Origin: Catellatospora sp. TT07R-123
GTDB taxonomy: Bacteria; Actinomycetota; Actinomycetes; Mycobacteriales; Micromonosporaceae
Assembly: GCF_018327705.1 (NCBI RefSeq)
Contig: NZ_BNEM01000001.1
Coordinates: 1,116,001 to 1,180,000 of the forward strand
Reading direction: 5' to 3'
DNA: 64,000 nt
Shown: in pieces, positions 38,216 through 45,325 of the stretch
How positions within the stretch are numbered: position 1 is the stretch's first letter
How the letters are laid out: each line of letters starts with the position of its first letter
Notes under the pieces: generated by a model
Databases searched by the model: none
The model's input: only the letters and a program-made list of their open reading frames with translations
Told to the model about the DNA's origin: nothing
Position numbers and translations under genes: made by a program

Positions 38216-38881
38216 TCAGCGGGCGCGCAGGTGGCGGGCGGCCACCACCGAGATCCACAGCATCGCGCTGATGACACCGACGGCCAGCGTGAGCGAGCCG
38301 CCCTTGCCGCCGGACATCGCCCACAGGTTGCCCACCAGCGCGGCGGTCCCGGCGATCCGGGAGGTGACGGCGACGGCGCGGTCACCGGCGCGGCTGTACC
38401 GGCGGGCCAGCACGTAGCAGGCGGCGATCAGAGCGGCGAAGGCGACGGTCCCGGAGGCGAAGTGAGCGTAGCTGTGCCAGCTGAGCGACGCGGGCACCCC
38501 GGCGGGCGTGCCGGCCGGGAAGCCGTCGGCCGCGTCCATCGAGAAGACCCCGGCGGCGATCATGCCGAGCCCGTTGACACGGACCAGCCGCGGCGCCCAC
38601 CGGCTGGGCATGACCCGGGCCAGGCCCGTGGCCCCGATGACGGTGAGCAGGCCGCAGACGAGGAAGTTGGTGATCTGGAGCCAGCCCAGCGAGCCGGTGC
38701 TCAGCATGCTGAGCGGGTGGCGGGTCAGGTCGAAGCCCGCACGGGTTGCCGCCTGGACCAGGCTGACGACCGCCCAGAGCGGGGCGGCGACGGCCGCGCA
38801 GGCCAGCAGCGTACGGGTGCCGGCGGCGGCGGGGGCGGGGGTGACGGTCGGGCGGGCGGTCGTGGTGGCGACGGCGGTCAT
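38216..38881 (-). CDS. DUF998 membrane protein
   Basis: A 221-residue protein with six predicted membrane helices. The DUF998 hallmarks are DLTRHPLSMLSTGSLGWLQI near the second helix, and MDAADGFPAGTP followed by SWHSYAHFASG. DUF998 members are membrane proteins of unknown biochemical role, often under ECF sigma or TetR control. It starts at ATG 38881, 37 bases from a 64-bp inverted repeat. The other arm of that repeat faces the DGPF/sigma genes, so the two units are probably induced together. Confidence 0.88.
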   Translation of the reverse strand: MTAVATTTARPTVTPAPAAAGTRTLLACAAVAAPLWAVVSLVQAATRAGFDLTRHPLSMLSTGSLGWLQITNFLVCGLLTVIGATGLARVMPSRWAPRLVRVNGLGMIAAGVFSMDAADGFPAGTPAGVPASLSWHSYAHFASGTVAFAALIAACYVLARRYSRAGDRAVAVTSRIAGTAALVGNLWAMSGGKGGSLTLAVGVISAMLWISVVAARHLRAR

Positions 38882-38917
38882 GTCCGGGCTCCTGTGTTCG
38901 AAGTGTGTGTCCGCCGG

Positions 38918-38981
38918 TACGTCGGCTCGGCGATCTGACAGGGAATAGACTCGTTCCCTGTCACATCGCCGAGCCGACGTA
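38918..38981. promoter_or_regulatory. 64-bp inverted repeat: possible twin divergent promoters
   Basis: Arms 38918-38945 and 38954-38981 (28 bases, one mismatch) around an 8-base loop, placed centrally between the divergent DUF998 and DGPF genes. Reading outward, each arm gives TGTCA(C/G)ATCGCC then CGACGTA, so each strand carries the same putative -35 and -10 elements. ECF42 factors reportedly use a TGTC-containing -35 element (from memory), so the repeat may be two back-to-back ECF promoters. Hairpin or operator function is also possible. Confidence 0.65.
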
Positions 38982-39015
38982 TGGGCGTCCCGACAACTCC
39001 ACGAAGGAGACAGAC

Positions 39016-39339
39016 ATGCGCTTCCTGATGACGTCCATGGCCACCGACCAGGCCCCCGACGAGAAGCTGTTCGCCGAGATGGCGAAGTTCATCGACGAGA
39101 TGACCGCCGCGGGCGTGCTGCTGGCCACCGGCGGGCTGGAGCGCGGCGGCGTGCGGCTGACCTCGTCCGGCGACGAGATCACCGTGACCGACGGGCCGTT
39201 CGCCGAGGCCAAGGAGGCCGTGGCCGGGTTCGCCCTGATCGAGGTCCGGTCCCGGGAGGAGGCGATCGAGCTCGGTCGCCGCTTCCGCAGCATCGTCGGC
39301 GACGGCGTGAGCATGATCCAGCAGGTCTTCGGGCCGTAG
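39016..39339 (+). CDS. YCII-related DGPF-domain protein
   Basis: A 107-residue protein starting at ATG 39016 after GAAGGAGA. The DGPF signature is intact (VTDGPFAEAKEAVAGFALIE), as is the N-terminal MRFLMTSMATDQAPD. Such dimeric alpha-beta proteins are the constant companion of ECF42 sigma factors and are among their targets; their enzymatic role is unclear. The sigma gene follows after 6 bp, so the pair is one operon. Confidence 0.92.
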   Translation: MRFLMTSMATDQAPDEKLFAEMAKFIDEMTAAGVLLATGGLERGGVRLTSSGDEITVTDGPFAEAKEAVAGFALIEVRSREEAIELGRRFRSIVGDGVSMIQQVFGP

Positions 39340-39345
39340 TCCGGC

Positions 39346-41259
39346 ATGTCCACCGCCATCCACCGCACCGTCGACGCGGTCTGGAGACTCGAGTCGGCCC
39401 GGCTCATCGCCGGGCTGACCCGTCTCGTCCACGACGTCGGACTCGCCGAGGAAATCGCCCAGGACGCCCTGGTCGCGGCCCTCGAACAGTGGCCGGTCGC
39501 AGGCGTGCCCGACAACCCCGGCGCCTGGCTGACGACTGTCGCCAGGCGCCGGGCGGTGGACCACATCCGGCGGTCGCAGCTGCTTGAACGCAAGCAGGAG
39601 GAGCTGGCCCGCGAGGCCGAGCAGCAGCCCGAGCGCGAGCCCGACGACGTGCTGCGGCTGATGTTCATCTCCTGCCATCCGGTGCTGCCCACCCCCGCCC
39701 GGGTCGCGCTCACGCTGCGGCTGATCGCGGGCCTGAGTGCCGCCGAGATCGGCCGGGCCTTCCTCACCACCGAATCGAAGATCACTGCTCGGATCGCCGA
39801 CGCCAAGCAGACCCTCGCCGACCGGCGGGTGCCGTTCGAGCTGCCCGCCGGGGCGGAACTGGCCGACCGGCTGTCGTCGGTGCTCGAAGTGGTCTACCTG
39901 GTCTTCAACGAGGGCTACTCGGCCAGTGCGGGCGACGACCTGATCCGCGCCGATCTCTGCCTGGAGGCCCTGCGGCTGGGCCGCCTGCTGGCCGAGCTGG
40001 CGCCCGCCGAACCCGAGGTGCACGGCCTGGTCGCGCTGATGGAGATCCAGGCGTCGCGCGCCGCGGCCCGGACCGGCCCCGACGGCGAACCCGTGCCGCT
40101 GCCCGAGCAGAACCGGGCCCGCTGGGACCAGCTGCTCATCCGGCGCGGCTTCACCGCCATGCTGCGCGCCCGCGACCTGGGCGCCCCGCCCGGCCCTTAC
40201 GTGGTGCAGGCCGCGATCGCGGTGTGCCACGCCCAGGCCCGCACCGCGCAGGACACCGACTGGGCCCAGATCGCCTCCCTGTACGACGTCCTGGTCCGGC
40301 TGCTGCCGACCCCGGTCGTGCAGCTCAACCGGGCCGTCGCGATCGGCATGGCGCGCGGCCCGCAGGCCGGGCTCGACCTGGTCGACTCGCTCACCGGCGA
40401 CCCGGCACTGCGCGACTACCACCTGCTGCCCGCCGTCCGCGCCGACCTGCTGGCCAGGCTGGACCGGCCCGCGCAGGCCCGGCGGGAGTTCGAGCGGGCC
40501 GCGGCGGCCGCCCGCAACGCCGCCGAACGCGAGTTCCTGCTGCGCCGCGCGGCGGCACTGCCCGAAGCCCCGGCGACCGGGCCGACCCTCGGGCAGTCGG
40601 CCCGGGAGTTCCTGCTGCGCACCGACCTCGATGCGCAGACCATCCGCTCGTACGCCCAGACGCTGCGCCGCCTGTGCCTCGACCTCGGCGACAGCCTCCC
40701 GCTGTCCGCGCTGACACCGGAGCGGGTGGGCGGCGTGTTCACCGCGTCCTGGGGTGACGCGGCGGCCCGCACCTGGAACCGGCACCGCGCCGCGGTCCGC
40801 TCCTTCGGCACCTGGGCCGGGCTCGCCGACCCGGCCGCGCGGCTCGACCTGCGCACGCCGGAGCCCTCCCCGAGGCCGGTCCTCGACCTGGACCCGCTGT
40901 GGGCCCGTGACCTGCCGCTGCGCGAGCACACCCTGTGGCGGCTGCTGCACGAGTCCGGCGTCTCGGCCCGCACGGCACTGGCCCTCGACGTGGCGGACCT
41001 GGACCTCGACGACCGCCGGGCCCGCGTCGGCGGCCGGTGGATCGGCTGGCGCGCCCGCACGGCCGCGCTACTGCCGCAGCTGCTCGCGGGCCGTACGCGC
41101 GGACCGGTCTTCCTCGCCGACCGGCGGCCCGGACCGGCCCGCACCCCCGCCGCCGCCGACCGCTGCCCCGACACCGGCCGCGGCCGCCTGTCCTACGAGC
41201 GCGCCGAATACCTGTTCAAGCAGGCCACCGGCCACACCCTGCGCGATCTCAAGCACTGA
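39346..41259 (+). CDS. ECF42-type sigma factor fused to a degenerate tyrosine-recombinase domain
   Basis: A 637-residue protein. Residues 1-160 are sigma region 2 (GLAEEIAQDALVAALEQWPV, WLTTVARRRAVDHIRR) and region 4 (LTLRLIAGLSAAEIGRAFLT). Residues 165-405 are the helical extension of the ECF42/SigJ-like group, which normally ends near EREFLLRRAAAL. Here the protein continues for about 225 residues. These resemble the core-binding and catalytic domains of an actinobacterial integrase: DLDAQTIRSYAQTLRRLCLD, LREHTLWRLLHESG, ALALDVADLDL, LLPQLLAGRTRGPVFLADRR, CPDTGRGRLSYERAEYLF. The first catalytic Arg position appears to be Ser540. The protein stops at TLRDLKH, where recombinases have LRHS, so no catalytic Tyr remains. 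Its stop abuts the next minus-strand gene. Confidence 0.85.
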   Translation: MSTAIHRTVDAVWRLESARLIAGLTRLVHDVGLAEEIAQDALVAALEQWPVAGVPDNPGAWLTTVARRRAVDHIRRSQLLERKQEELAREAEQQPEREPDDVLRLMFISCHPVLPTPARVALTLRLIAGLSAAEIGRAFLTTESKITARIADAKQTLADRRVPFELPAGAELADRLSSVLEVVYLVFNEGYSASAGDDLIRADLCLEALRLGRLLAELAPAEPEVHGLVALMEIQASRAAARTGPDGEPVPLPEQNRARWDQLLIRRGFTAMLRARDLGAPPGPYVVQAAIAVCHAQARTAQDTDWAQIASLYDVLVRLLPTPVVQLNRAVAIGMARGPQAGLDLVDSLTGDPALRDYHLLPAVRADLLARLDRPAQARREFERAAAAARNAAEREFLLRRAAALPEAPATGPTLGQSAREFLLRTDLDAQTIRSYAQTLRRLCLDLGDSLPLSALTPERVGGVFTASWGDAAARTWNRHRAAVRSFGTWAGLADPAARLDLRTPEPSPRPVLDLDPLWARDLPLREHTLWRLLHESGVSARTALALDVADLDLDDRRARVGGRWIGWRARTAALLPQLLAGRTRGPVFLADRRPGPARTPAAADRCPDTGRGRLSYERAEYLFKQATGHTLRDLKH

Positions 41260-42237
41260 CTACTGTCTGCGCAGGTCGAAACCGACACCGTCCCCAGACA
41301 CGGACATGGACTTCTCACTACACGTATAACCTGCCACCCAGTCGGGCAGGTAGGAGTACCCGCGCGACGGAAGAAGGTCGTCTACCTTGGTCTTCTTCCA
41401 CGGTCCGTCATCTTCCCGTTGTTCAGCCGCTCCCGATTTCGACACCTCCCGCAGCGCGAGTTCTCCGCTACTAGCCGAGTATCTGAACGTGAACGCGAAG
41501 GTCGCCCGCCGGTTGAAGGACCGACTCACCCCGCTGACGGTCGCCGTACCCAGATACTCGACCTCTCTGCCGGTGAATGCCCCGGTTCCGTCGGAACCAA
41601 GGTGGAGTGAGCCGCCGCCTCCCACGAATGTCGTCGACGGCTCGGTGCCCTCGAAAATATGTGACGCGATCTCCCAGTCGCCGGCGACGCATTCGTCTGG
41701 CAGCTGCGTGTTATGGCCCTGCACCAACGCGGCCACCGTGCCGCCGACAGCGTAGAGAAGCACAACCACCGCAAGGAGCGTTCCGAGCGTCAGGCGGGTC
41801 CGGCGAAGACGGTATCGCCGCCCAGCTGCGCGTGACCTGTAGATGATGGAACCGAGCCGGACCAGGCCGGTGGCTATGGACCCCCAGCCCACCACGGCCA
41901 GAAGCAGAGGCCCGACGAACAGACCGAGACCGACGGCCAGAAGCACGCCCATTGCTGCGACCAGTACGCCACCGAGCAGAAGGCCCAGACCCGCGCGGAG
42001 CCGCCACCGGCGTTGCACTTCGACATCGCCGCCAGTGGGCGCTCGAAACAACGGGGCCATACGCGAAATCAACCGGCGCCAGAAATCACTCGAAACCGCT
42101 GGCTCCGCAATACGGCCGGCCTCAGGCTGCTGCGGGGTCTGGCGCCTGAATGCCAGCACTGCCAGAACTGTCGCAATCACCGAGGCCAAAGCAGACAGCA
42201 CAGCCGACGAAGCATCAACGACTTCGAGTATTGACAC
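41260..42237 (-). CDS. Membrane protein of unknown function
   Basis: A 325-residue protein. There is one helix at residues 10-28 (SAVLSALASVIATVLAVLAF), two adjacent helices at about 83-130 and another at about 150-172. A C-terminal soluble domain (about 180-325) contains the paired Cys DECVAGDW and GYTCSEKS and a beta-rich stretch, STTFVGGGGSLHLGSDGTGA. It has more Ser, Thr, Arg and Gln and is less GC-biased than its neighbours, so it may be an acquired gene. The stop codon directly touches the stop of the sigma-fusion gene. I recognise no family. Confidence 0.8.
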   Translation of the reverse strand: MSILEVVDASSAVLSALASVIATVLAVLAFRRQTPQQPEAGRIAEPAVSSDFWRRLISRMAPLFRAPTGGDVEVQRRWRLRAGLGLLLGGVLVAAMGVLLAVGLGLFVGPLLLAVVGWGSIATGLVRLGSIIYRSRAAGRRYRLRRTRLTLGTLLAVVVLLYAVGGTVAALVQGHNTQLPDECVAGDWEIASHIFEGTEPSTTFVGGGGSLHLGSDGTGAFTGREVEYLGTATVSGVSRSFNRRATFAFTFRYSASSGELALREVSKSGAAEQREDDGPWKKTKVDDLLPSRGYSYLPDWVAGYTCSEKSMSVSGDGVGFDLRRQ

Positions 42238-42375: not shown

Positions 42376-42417
42376 CTTACACCTGTGGTGGTGTGGATAC
42401 ACCACCACAGGTGTAAG
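42376..42417. repeat. TTACACCT hairpin, copy 1
   Basis: Perfect 19-base arms (42376-42394 and 42399-42417) around GGAT, 9 bases beyond the stop of the RING/TerD-like gene. The outer bases CTTACACCT/AGGTGTAAG and inner GGTGT/ACACC are shared with the hairpin at 54307-54356, so this is a small repeat family that probably acts as a terminator here. The rest of the 42238-42426 gap holds no gene I can support. Confidence 0.8.
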
Positions 42418-42426
42418 GCACCGCAG

Positions 42427-45261
42427 TCAGTCGTCCTCGGGCGCCGGAATCAGCGCGGCCATGAGGTCGGCCGCCGTCACCGCCGTCCACGGCGGCGCCG
42501 CCTCACCATCCACCAGGATCGCCGTGCTGCCTGCGGTGACCTCAGCTCCCGCGAGCTGCGCCAGCCGAGTCGGGTCGACCGCGGCCGCCAGAATCCGGCC
42601 TGCCCGCTCGGGAGCGGGGTCGCCGGTCGGCGCGACGGCTGCGGCACGGACCGCGGCGACGGTGGCAGCCGGGTCGGCCGCGACGATCTCGGTCGCGGTG
42701 CCGTCGGCGTGGACGACCAGCACGCGGTCGGCGCGGGCCGCGGCGTGCCAGGCGGCGACGTCGAGCAGGGTCGGCCGGTGCCCGTCCTGGAAGTGGTCCC
42801 ACAGATCGGCGGCCAGGCGGCCGAGGCGGGCGCCGTGGGCGCCGATGCTGTGGCCGTACCCCTTGGTGGACATGCTGGCGTCGACCCACATCACCGACCC
42901 GGCGGCCACGTCCAGGACCAGCGGGGCCAGCGACTTGGCGTCGCCGCGCAGCCCGAACTTCTGCATGACCCGGCCCGCGTCGAGGCCGCGGCTGCGCGGC
43001 CCCGGCAGCGAGAACCCGGCGAAGGCCGCGTCGAGCAGCTCGAACGGCACGTCGTTGTAGCTGAGCACGACCGGCACCGCCCAGCGCACCCCTGCCGTGA
43101 GCAGCGCCGACCGGTTCAGGTCGAGGAACTCGGTGGCCCCCAACGGCGCCGGGGCGGAGGTGAGGTCGCCGGAGTGGACCGCGGCGTCGTGCCGGAACCG
43201 GAGCTGGGTGAAGTCGCAGTGGCCGACCGGGTTCCAGCCCTCGTCGTAGAAGCCGCAGGACAGGTCCAGGTCGACGCGGTGGCTGCCGCTGTCGACCCAG
43301 TGCAGGAACAGGCGCACCGTCGCCGCATCCGGCAGCGGCCGTACGCTGCCGCGCGGCCAGCCCGCCAGCTGCGCGGACCCGGCGCGGTCCCGGCCCGGCG
43401 CGGGCACCTGCGCCAGCGCGGCATCGAGCACGGCCAGGTCGAACCGCTCCAGCCGCGCGGCGCGCGCGGTCAGCTCGGCGTCGGCGACGGCCCGCACCCG
43501 GGCGGTCAGCTCGGCCGGCAGCGGGGCGCGCTGCTCGGGGGCGGTCCAGGCGCGCACGACGTCGCCCTTGGGGAAGAACGTGCGCCGCGGGGTGCCGGGC
43601 ACCTGCACGGCATAGCCCGTCGGCGTCGCGACGCGGATGTTCAGGCCCGCCGCGCGGCGCAGGGCGGCGCCGAGCGCGCCGACCGGCGCCGACCCGGCCG
43701 CGCCGACGGCCTCGGTGACGGACGCGCCGACGGGCACCGACGCCGCGGCCGTGGCCGGGCGGGCGCGGTCGCCGTCCCGGCCGGTCAGCGCGGCGGCGGC
43801 GACCGCCAGGACGTTCGGCGACACCCGGGCCGCGGCCTGCGCGATCGCGTCGGCGACGACAGCCGGCGCGTCCGGGTCGTCGGCGGCCAGCCGCAGCAGG
43901 TGGTCGGCGCGCCGCCAGAGGTCGCCCGGCCGGTGGGCGAGCAGCGCGGCGGCGGTGAACGCGTCGCCGTACGCGATCGCCTCCTCGACCAGGGCCGCGA
44001 AGCTGCGCACCCGCACCGAGGCGGTGCCGCGGTGGTAGGAGACGATCAGCCGCTCCGGGCGCCGCGCGGCCGCCTCGGCCATGGCCAGTCCGAGCGGCCC
44101 GTCCACGGGGGTGCGGGTGCCGCGCAGGGTCGCGAACACCACGGCCGCGCGGGGGTGCGCCCCGACCGCCTCGTACGGGTGCAGGCGCTCGCCCAGCCGC
44201 TTCCACACCACCGGGTGCCGGGCCACGTCCTCGGCGGCCGTGGCCGGGTCGAGCCCGTCGACGAAGGCGAGCACGGCACGGCGCAGCACGCGGGGCAGCG
44301 CCCGCACCCGGGGCACGGCCACGGTCAGCCGGGGCTCGCCGACCGGCCGGAACCCTTCCATCGGTCCACCGGTCACCGGCTTGCGGGGCAGGATCAGGCC
44401 CGGGTCGCCCCCGGAGTACGCCCACAGCGCGCGGGCGGCGTCGGTGGCCGTCGACCACCGGCCCGCGGCCTCGCGCAGGACCGGGCCGTACCCGTCAGTG
44501 AGGGCGGTCGCGTGCAGCGCCCACGCCACCAGCAGCGCGAGCGTCTCGCGGGCGGGCACGGTCGGCGGCAGCCAGTCGAGGCGGCCCGGTGCGGTGGCCG
44601 CGACCAGGATCTCCAGGTCGGCACGGTCGGCGGCGCCGAGCGCGGCGGTGCGGCCGACGAGTTCGTCGCGCAGCCGGACCGCGCTCGCGGCGGGCGCCTC
44701 GTCCAGGGTGATCCGCCGCAGGCGCAGCGCCGGACCCGGCGGCGCCGGTTCGGCGGGCTCGGCCAACACCAGGTACGGGCTGTCGGCGGTGAGCCGCTGC
44801 CCGCAGATCGGGCACCCGGAGTATGCGGCGGGGTCGAAGCACTCGGTGCACGCGAGGTGCCCGCACGGGTCCATCGGCCGGACCGCGCCGGTGATCCCGC
44901 ACAGCGCGCACGGCGCCCCGGCGGCCTGGAACAGGTGCGCCAGCAGGCGCTGGACGTAGAGGCTGTCCGGCGAGACCGGGATGTCGGGGAAGTCGCGGAA
45001 CAGCGGGGCGTGCTCCCGGTCGGCGCCGACGGCCTCGTCGGCCACCGCGGACATCCAGTCCGCCCAGCTCAGCCGGGTCGGGGCGGCCAGCGCGGCGAAG
45101 CGCCGGCGCAGGGCGGGGTCCAGCAGCCAGCCCCGGGCGGCCAGATCCGCCTCGAACGCCCGTACCCACTGGTCGCCGTCGGCGGGCGGCTGCCCGGCGG
45201 CGTCCTGCGGCAGGGCGACCGCGCCGGCGCGGCGCAGCAGGACCGTGGCGAGCGCGTCCAT
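42427..45261 (-). CDS. RING-finger/TerD-like large protein (MXAN_6230/SCO0854-like)
   Basis: A 944-residue protein starting at ATG 45261 after GGAGGAA. A C3HC4 RING-type zinc finger lies at residues 118-153, with Cys118, Cys121, Cys133, His135, Cys138, Cys141, Cys150 and Cys153 spaced as in RING domains. The central 500 residues are helical. A C-terminal TerD-like beta-sandwich includes FLHWVDSGSHRVDLDLSCGF and YDEGWNPVGHCDFTQLRF, and DDAAVHSGDLT-like sequence (RHDAAVHSGDLTS). Orthologues are annotated as RING-domain proteins of the MXAN_6230/SCO0854 family (from memory), function unknown. It stands alone and is divergent from argG. Confidence 0.87.
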   Translation of the reverse strand: MDALATVLLRRAGAVALPQDAAGQPPADGDQWVRAFEADLAARGWLLDPALRRRFAALAAPTRLSWADWMSAVADEAVGADREHAPLFRDFPDIPVSPDSLYVQRLLAHLFQAAGAPCALCGITGAVRPMDPCGHLACTECFDPAAYSGCPICGQRLTADSPYLVLAEPAEPAPPGPALRLRRITLDEAPAASAVRLRDELVGRTAALGAADRADLEILVAATAPGRLDWLPPTVPARETLALLVAWALHATALTDGYGPVLREAAGRWSTATDAARALWAYSGGDPGLILPRKPVTGGPMEGFRPVGEPRLTVAVPRVRALPRVLRRAVLAFVDGLDPATAAEDVARHPVVWKRLGERLHPYEAVGAHPRAAVVFATLRGTRTPVDGPLGLAMAEAAARRPERLIVSYHRGTASVRVRSFAALVEEAIAYGDAFTAAALLAHRPGDLWRRADHLLRLAADDPDAPAVVADAIAQAAARVSPNVLAVAAAALTGRDGDRARPATAAASVPVGASVTEAVGAAGSAPVGALGAALRRAAGLNIRVATPTGYAVQVPGTPRRTFFPKGDVVRAWTAPEQRAPLPAELTARVRAVADAELTARAARLERFDLAVLDAALAQVPAPGRDRAGSAQLAGWPRGSVRPLPDAATVRLFLHWVDSGSHRVDLDLSCGFYDEGWNPVGHCDFTQLRFRHDAAVHSGDLTSAPAPLGATEFLDLNRSALLTAGVRWAVPVVLSYNDVPFELLDAAFAGFSLPGPRSRGLDAGRVMQKFGLRGDAKSLAPLVLDVAAGSVMWVDASMSTKGYGHSIGAHGARLGRLAADLWDHFQDGHRPTLLDVAAWHAAARADRVLVVHADGTATEIVAADPAATVAAVRAAAVAPTGDPAPERAGRILAAAVDPTRLAQLAGAEVTAGSTAILVDGEAAPPWTAVTAADLMAALIPAPEDD

Positions 45262-45325
45262 GGCAGTTCCTCCGTGACCTGCGGACGGGCGCCGGATGAC
45301 CGGCAAGGAAAGGCCGGGTCGGTGA

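Follow-up and report, generated by a model that had tools for sequence, protein, structure and literature searches.

What is a truncated tyrosine recombinase doing at the end of a sigma factor? The question is raised by a gene in a 64,000-nt stretch of the Catellatospora sp. TT07R-123 genome (contig NZ_BNEM01000001.1, positions 1,116,001 to 1,180,000; this whole stretch is referred to here as the window, and positions are given within it), in which an ECF42 sigma factor runs directly into a recombinase-derived tail. The informative feature falls outside the gene itself (39346–41259), in the promoter at 38912–38987, and is a 13-bp box, TTCCCTGTCACAT, that lies upstream of fusion operons of this kind, mostly as an inverted pair with arms 8 bp apart. 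We consider it probable, at roughly 0.72, that the dead recombinase domain took over recognition of the –35 element from sigma4; the DNA-tethering role proposed in the original prediction for this gene, made from the sequence alone, would then have a probable target in the box upstream of the protein's own operon.

The fusion protein and its tail

A Pfam search of the 637-residue protein matched Sigma70_r2 (residues 20–78), Sigma70_r4_2 (106–157, at 23.4 bits, slightly below the Pfam cut-off of 25.7), DUF6596 (175–275) and Phage_int_SAM_1 (428–491; E-value 3e-5), and reported no tetratricopeptide repeat (TPR) family at E 1. The layout of an ECF-type sigma2 and sigma4 followed by DUF6596 is that of ECF42. 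Queries with the full protein and with the tail collected 118 loci, 92 of which have sigma and tail in one frame and 87 of which are distinct after de-duplication; this is a lower bound, as 80 of 117 confirmed places were taken. A YCII/DGPF-type partner is present in the window, and a YCII match accompanies the fusion at 91 of the 92 loci, the exception being the decayed locus L025. The fusions are spread over Micromonosporaceae, Streptosporangiaceae, Pseudonocardiaceae, Streptomycetaceae, Nocardiopsidaceae and Thermomonosporaceae, and one record labelled Nocardiaceae is placed among Kibdelosporangium in the tree. The proposed sigma-recombinase fusion is thus borne out by one 637-codon frame in the window and by its wide occurrence in relatives, and the 87 distinct single-frame fusions rule out a frameshift or assembly artefact that would have joined two separate genes. 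In one locus, L046 from Streptomyces tanashiensis, sigma and tail lie in two overlapping frames, possibly through a frameshift or sequence error; its promoter carries an exact inverted box pair.

A profile built from 65 tails and their free relatives matches the XerC-like structure 4a8e (E 3.6e-7) and XerD 1a0p (E 1.7e-6), and an AlphaFold2 model of the tail (mean predicted local distance difference test score 95.0, predicted template modelling score 0.74) starts with four helices and continues as a mixed alpha/beta part. By sequence profile the tail is a tyrosine recombinase fold, and the predicted secondary structure is compatible with this, in agreement with the origin that had been proposed.

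Active tyrosine recombinases carry a catalytic Arg, Lys, Arg, His and Tyr, a set that the window tail lacks. There is a Ser at the first catalytic Arg (Arg I), and the protein ends in TLRDLKH, so that it has a Lys at the box II Arg and lacks the later His and Tyr, as the original prediction had it for the first Arg and for the Tyr. Of 86 fused tails, 4 retain the box I Arg, 4 the beta-strand Lys, 54 the box II Arg, 1 the His and 2 the Tyr (the Tyr of L098 is probably an alignment effect); 15 free relatives, four of which (L029, L031, L037 and L038) are truncated as well, have Arg I in all 15, Lys in 11, Arg II in 15, His in 11 and Tyr in 11. Most catalytic residues are therefore missing from the fused tails, in keeping with the expected loss of catalysis. 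The only fused tail to run more than 40 residues beyond the conserved helix described below, and so to reach the Tyr, is that of L089 (L089:2705-4855), from a Sphaerisporangium metagenome-assembled genome, which has a full-length catalytic part with box I Arg, box II, His and Tyr and is possibly a sigma factor that remains a recombinase.

DNA-binding parts were expected to survive, and one helix, RLSYERAEYLFKQA, is nearly unchanging, with its R, S, Y, R, A, L and K each present in 86/86 fused tails. In a register set by hand it corresponds to helix J of Cre, residues of which touch DNA bases and help to determine the choice of site, with half-sites of 13 bp (PMC7438526).

The description of the domain as decayed did not hold. 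Ratios of nonsynonymous to synonymous substitution rates (dN/dS) in ten pairs are 0.16–0.37 for the tail and 0.09–0.26 for the sigma part, and the 86 tails form one clade separate from free recombinases (support 97; the decayed L025 was omitted, and the clade also takes in L116, which is cut off at a contig end). By these measures the tail is under purifying selection and is an old, selected module with a conserved truncation. The dN/dS of the tail likewise rules out pseudogene decay; the copy in genome G016 is decayed.

The box, its distribution and free recombinases

In the 72 fused loci on genome contigs the 250 bp preceding the YCII gene were searched for the box, which was found exactly in 57, with at most one mismatch in 71 and with at most two in all 72. 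In the genome of Catellatospora sp. TT07R-123, the combination of box and –10 occurs twice, both times at the fusion locus (within the window, 2 sites against 0.00 expected), and the regulon search of that genome found no third such site; the predicted regulon therefore consists of the YCII-sigma operon and the divergent DUF998 gene. The two inverted arms in the window, separated by 8 bp, have the form of a tyrosine recombinase core site, in which two arms of about 13 bp flank 6–8 bp.

Among 151 genomes the exact box is present in 15 (this one included), all of them within the 19 that have a fusion (the copy in G016 being decayed), and the other four fusion genomes have a box with one mismatch. 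None of the 132 genomes lacking a fusion has the exact box, which rules out that it is the site of a widespread regulator. A search that tolerates one mismatch finds the box in 86/151 genomes, so that only the exact match is telling. In a set of 394 class-wide genomes, which shares some members with the first and in which fusions may have been missed as seven first-look candidates were scored per genome, the exact box is present in 14 of the 15 fusion genomes, and the fifteenth (G323) has one-mismatch boxes. It also occurs at seven places in six genomes outside the fusion set, and a reversed control pattern gave 5 matches. Four of these genomes (G344, G385, G234 and G525) have no relative of the proteins in the 3-kb locus and no CGACG at 12–13 nt, the site in G385 (L229) having CGACC at 13 nt from the box; a recombinase fragment lies at the locus in G456, and the locus in G448 gave no match on the stretch read.

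Genome G016 has ten exact boxes, which were considered as a possible regulon and rejected as such, since seven of the ten lie in mutually similar dispersed repeats (L151–L154, L157, and L158 with two). Of the remaining three, one (L155) lies beside the decayed fusion, whereas L150 and L156 lack such repeat similarity among the matches listed. A small mobile repeat family that uses the same half-site is possible in this genome (L150–L158), the fusion gene of which is decayed.

Free recombinases related to the tail often have sites of the same kind. In eight of the 12 with the helix RLSY[PE]RAEYLFKQ, inverted arms separated by 7 bp lie no more than 450 bp before the recombinase's own gene; the arm of L105 is nearly identical to the box, and those of L112, L114, L117, L118, L028, L030 and L273 are TTC[TC][CG]TGTCA-like, with up to 3 mismatches from it. 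In a ninth of the 12, L284 (in G383), an exact box pair is located about 0.9 kb before the recombinase gene. More generally, inverted repeats (13-bp arms, gaps of 6–9, at most one mismatch; eight truncated, fused or odd loci excluded beforehand) are present upstream of 10 of 25 free recombinases as against 4 of 125 control windows, although two of the ten (L035 and L282) look like chance in GC-rich DNA. These observations suggest that the box belongs to a recombinase. Other arms accompany other helices: arms like TTWWCTGCGGTA are found in L032, L034 and L281, among the eight free relatives with an RLSYRRA helix, and a TTATCCGGTAG arm in L274, among the three untruncated relatives with an RLGYDRARILL helix. 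The arm sequence may change along with the helix, and these few cases raise the possibility of a recognition code for this recombinase family.

Two further observations concern such recombinases. Four stand-alone integrase-like proteins (L029, L031, L037 and L038) of 255–294 residues end just past box II and have the helix RLGYDRARILLDQ; no ECF42 gene was found in their 3.6-kb loci, and they perhaps represent a second, independent domestication. At L289 (G456:C50:17500-25500) a tail-less ECF42 gene is broken, within the part coding for sigma4, by about 4.9 kb of intervening DNA. This segment begins or ends in a 13-7-13 core on one side and has the truncated start of an L105-like recombinase on the other, with no clean pair of attachment sites; it hints that such elements can land in ECF42 genes.

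Promoter architecture and the sigma4 arginine

We divided the fused loci by promoter layout, class II being the ten with direct boxes upstream of the promoter and class I comprising all other fused rows. The typical, although non-defining, ECF42 promoter has TGTC 18–19 nt before CG[AT]. Of 31 operons with tail-less ECF42 factors, 24 have this normal –35/–10 pair (Markov-resampled control: mean 0.56, maximum 4), and none has the box at up to two mismatches. In class I the pattern is absent (0/61), and no TGTC is found at gaps of 14–22 nt before the –10, where the normal ECF42 –35 would lie (0/61). Instead, the TGTC of the box lies 12 nt (26 loci) or 13 nt (34 loci) before CGACG in the 60 of 63 genome-contig loci that could be scored, with gaps of 8–16 nt allowed. 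The arms of the inverted pair in 60 scored class I loci are 8 bp apart in 42, 9 bp in six, 10 bp in three, and 12, 22 and 55 bp in one each, and six have a single box. A second inverted arm is present at 46/46 class I loci with a divergent DUF998 gene as against 9/15 without (Fisher 9e-5; the comparison covered DUF998 only), and it has a CG[AT]C of its own, at 10–15 nt, in 45/46 and 5/9 cases respectively.

Class II loci, which belong to one Streptosporangiaceae clade, have the normal pair exactly in 6/10, with one or two direct boxes further upstream; in four Acrocarpospora loci the first T of the –35 appears changed by eye. Most class II tails have also lost catalytic residues, which implies that loss of catalysis and the change of promoter were separate steps. 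In a tree from a quick search run without bootstrap, the fusions branch beside tail-less ECF42 paralogues; class I is one clade except for L024 (75/76 rows; Shimodaira–Hasegawa-like approximate likelihood ratio test [SH-aLRT] 99), and class II forms another (94), sister to that of class I (81).

The promoter difference is matched within the sigma factor. Residue 152, in the recognition helix of sigma4, is Arg in 23/23 tail-less sequences (33 loci tried, 21 passing the filter, plus two paralogues) and in 10/10 of class II, but in only 3/77 of class I, and is Asp in the window protein. Together with residue 29 in sigma2, it forms one of two columns that sharply separate class I from the others (the commonest letter of the others being at 85% or more among them and at 35% or less in class I); conversely, 15 more columns are conserved within class I alone. 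When aligned with the solved sigma factor 6in7, residue 152 falls opposite the second Arg of RIFRAR, which by our own register would be R186 of sigmaH. That residue forms two hydrogen bonds with the first G of the –35, and activity is lost when it is mutated to Ala (PMC6411747). Three features agree strongly, the loss of the –35 and that of the Arg among them, although this is essentially a single co-occurrence.

The features of the locus are listed in the table.

Features of the fusion locus in the window, with positions, strand and basis or remarks
Feature	Position	Strand	Basis or remarks
DUF998 membrane protein, divergent gene	38216–38881	–	predicted second target
Whole inverted repeat	38912–38987		arms 38912–38945 and 38954–38987, 34 nt each, 91% complementary, 8 nt between
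–10-like CGACG of the divergent DUF998 gene	38920–38924	–	12 nt past TGTC of the left box
Box TTCCCTGTCAGAT, left arm of the inverted pair	38933–38945	–	8 bp away from the right arm
Box TTCCCTGTCACAT, right arm of the inverted pair	38954–38966	+	
–10-like CGACG of the YCII/sigma operon	38975–38979	+	12 nt past TGTC of the right box
YCII-domain protein, first gene of the operon	39016–39339	+	Pfam; usual ECF42 partner
ECF42 sigma factor with truncated tyrosine-recombinase domain	39346–41259	+	single open frame, 637 aa
sigma2-sigma4 part, residues 1–157	39346–39816	+	Pfam and alignment; codon of residue 152 at 39799–39801
DUF6596, the ECF42-type C-terminal domain, residues 175–275	39868–40170	+	Pfam
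Recombinase-derived tail, residues 411–637	40576–41259	+	SAM-like core-binding domain and catalytic domain ending at box II
Near-invariant helix RLSYERAEYLFKQA, residues 614–627	41185–41226	+	corresponds in a hand register to base-reading helix J of Cre (PMC7438526)

Two neighbouring features were also noted. A 325-codon minus-strand frame (41260–42237) abuts the stop codon of the fusion, is of lower GC content (about 0.62–0.69) and matches no Pfam family at E 0.1. A perfect inverted repeat with 19-nt arms and 4 nt between them (42376–42417) separates two minus-strand genes, lies downstream of the gene at 42427–45306, and looks like a terminator or operator.

How the tail may act and what it would mean

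In the mechanism that we favour, sigma2 would go on reading the –10 (CGACG) and the non-catalytic recombinase domain would clamp the 13-bp half-site at the position of the –35 and spacer, holding RNA polymerase at the promoter, with the base-reading Arg of sigma4 lost. As the inverted arms are 8 bp apart, two copies could fire outwards in both directions, into the YCII-sigma operon and the divergent DUF998 gene, and the outcome would be an autoregulated switch whose regulon is very small. Class II retains the sigma4 Arg and the ordinary –35, and there the boxes would act from upstream, as with a classical activator. The sequences themselves show the fusion and its conservation, the boxes with their spacing, and the loss of the –35 and of the Arg; from them we infer binding of the box by the tail, activation through that binding, and a signal of the ECF42/YCII type. 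On the simplest account a recombinase gene became fused to an ECF42 gene; the recombinase site would first have been an auxiliary upstream element, as in class II (L089 still having a full-length catalytic part), and in class I would later have moved into the promoter and replaced the –35, leaving the sigma4 Arg dispensable.

Several observations weigh against this reading. Three class I rows (L085, L103 and L024) keep the Arg, and L024, which lies outside the class I clade, has a box without a clear –10. The loss of the Arg and the loss of the –35 fall on one branch, that of the class I clade (SH-aLRT 99), and so amount to essentially one event. Two of the 63 class I loci, L053 and L083, lack a scorable plus-strand box and –10, although both have a minus-strand box. 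Seven of the 31 tail-less ECF42 operons (L002, L167, L168, L177, L185, L186 and L191) lack the exact canonical pattern, and since L002, L167, L168, L185 and L186 are among those closest to the fusion, some doubt attaches to the ancestral promoter; most of the tail-less set, moreover, comes from one genus and its near kin. Among free recombinases, L115, L270 and L271, with the same helix, and L272, with a near-identical one, have no clean pair upstream; the matching of helix and arm for the other helix types rests on few cases (3/8 and 1/3); and the gap between arms is mostly 8 bp in the fusions as opposed to 7 bp in the free recombinases. Finally, there would have to be room next to RNA polymerase for a clamp on the spacer.

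The alternative that survives best, although we regard it as unlikely, is that the tail binds the box but represses, blocking the polymerase between –35 and –10 in a negative autoregulation, with transcription by another holoenzyme or in a tail-free state. The class I box does overlap the promoter, which is the classical position of an operator. However, a promoter that works without the tail is hard to envisage when the ECF42-type –35 is missing throughout class I (the search was aimed at that type and left aside those of other sigma factors), the class II boxes occupy an activator position upstream of the promoter, and the second arm accompanies a second promoter.

Somewhat less likely still is that the box is a variant –35 read by an altered sigma4, with the tail as a structural or protein-interaction domain. 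TGTC is common to the box and the normal ECF42 –35, and sigma4 has indeed changed, but we rejected this as the principal explanation on account of the spacing, which is 12–13 rather than 18–19 nt; moreover TTCCC is conserved besides TGTC, class II boxes are distant from the position of sigma4, and the same kind of site occurs at free recombinases that have no sigma part at all.

We give little credence to the idea that a recombinase acting in trans once used the boxes, or still uses them, as insertion or inversion sites, with the tail a passive passenger. Intact recombinases with the same kind of site do exist, and the interrupted ECF42 gene at L289 shows a segment ending in such a core, but the Catellatospora genome, which has six tail-less ECF42 paralogues (46–61% identity), has no other relative of the tail at E 1e-5 among the 19 of 27 first-look candidates scored, the second arm comes with its own –10 and is tied to the divergent gene, and the tail is selectively maintained. 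That an unrelated regulator binds the box and the tail has another job would accommodate the indirect nature of the case for tail-box binding, yet it is very improbable given the lack of any exact box in the 132 relatives without a fusion and the frequent presence of the same kind of site at intact recombinases with the same helix.

Recognition of the –35 by the captured recombinase domain can be compared with several known systems. Like other ECF42 sigma factors, the fusion has the sigma2-sigma4-DUF6596 layout, an upstream YCII gene and a CGAC-type –10; unlike them, it has an extra recombinase-derived tail of 227 residues, and class I has neither the –35 nor the sigma4 Arg. In ECF42 the TPR extension is essential for activity and an interaction-driven mechanism is described (PMC8999054). 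C-terminal regulatory extensions in the same chain are also known from ECF41 and ECF56, with SnoaL, and from the CorE-like ECF238 (PMC8999054), but these are described as acting on the sigma domains, whereas here the domain would read promoter DNA. With XerC/D and Cre/loxP the tail shares the SAM-like core-binding domain and a remnant of the catalytic domain, and with Cre the 13-bp half-sites and helix J (PMC7438526); unlike those enzymes, it has lost catalytic residues, ends before the nucleophile and has its site at a promoter. Reuse of a recombinase-derived domain by a host is known from eukaryotic ALOG domains, for which a role in gene control was predicted (PMC3537659), and from Crypton-derived genes (PMC3212892), but those are eukaryotic proteins, and the domain here sits in the sigma subunit of a bacterial polymerase. 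The words integrase and recombinase do not occur in the available parts of PMC8999054, PMC11119718 and PMC11256431, the latter two of which mention DUF6596. A search of the open-licence literature by title or start of abstract found no sigma-integrase or sigma-recombinase fusion, from which absence from print cannot be claimed.

We lean towards regarding these proteins as a class of sigma factors in which a dead site-specific recombinase has taken the place of the –35 reader, with promoter recognition split between sigma2 and the captured clamp. Stages of the process appear to be still visible, in the complete catalytic domain of L089, the auxiliary upstream boxes of class II, and the replacement of the –35 with loss of the Arg in class I, and would provide a ready series of evolutionary intermediates. 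If this is correct, a sigma factor can alter its way of locating promoters by acquiring the DNA-binding domain of a mobile element, a modular route to a new, long and nearly unique recognition site. The ECF42 mechanism would become testable through a defined 13-bp site, and an annotation of phage integrase on a regulator could signify promoter recognition rather than mobility.

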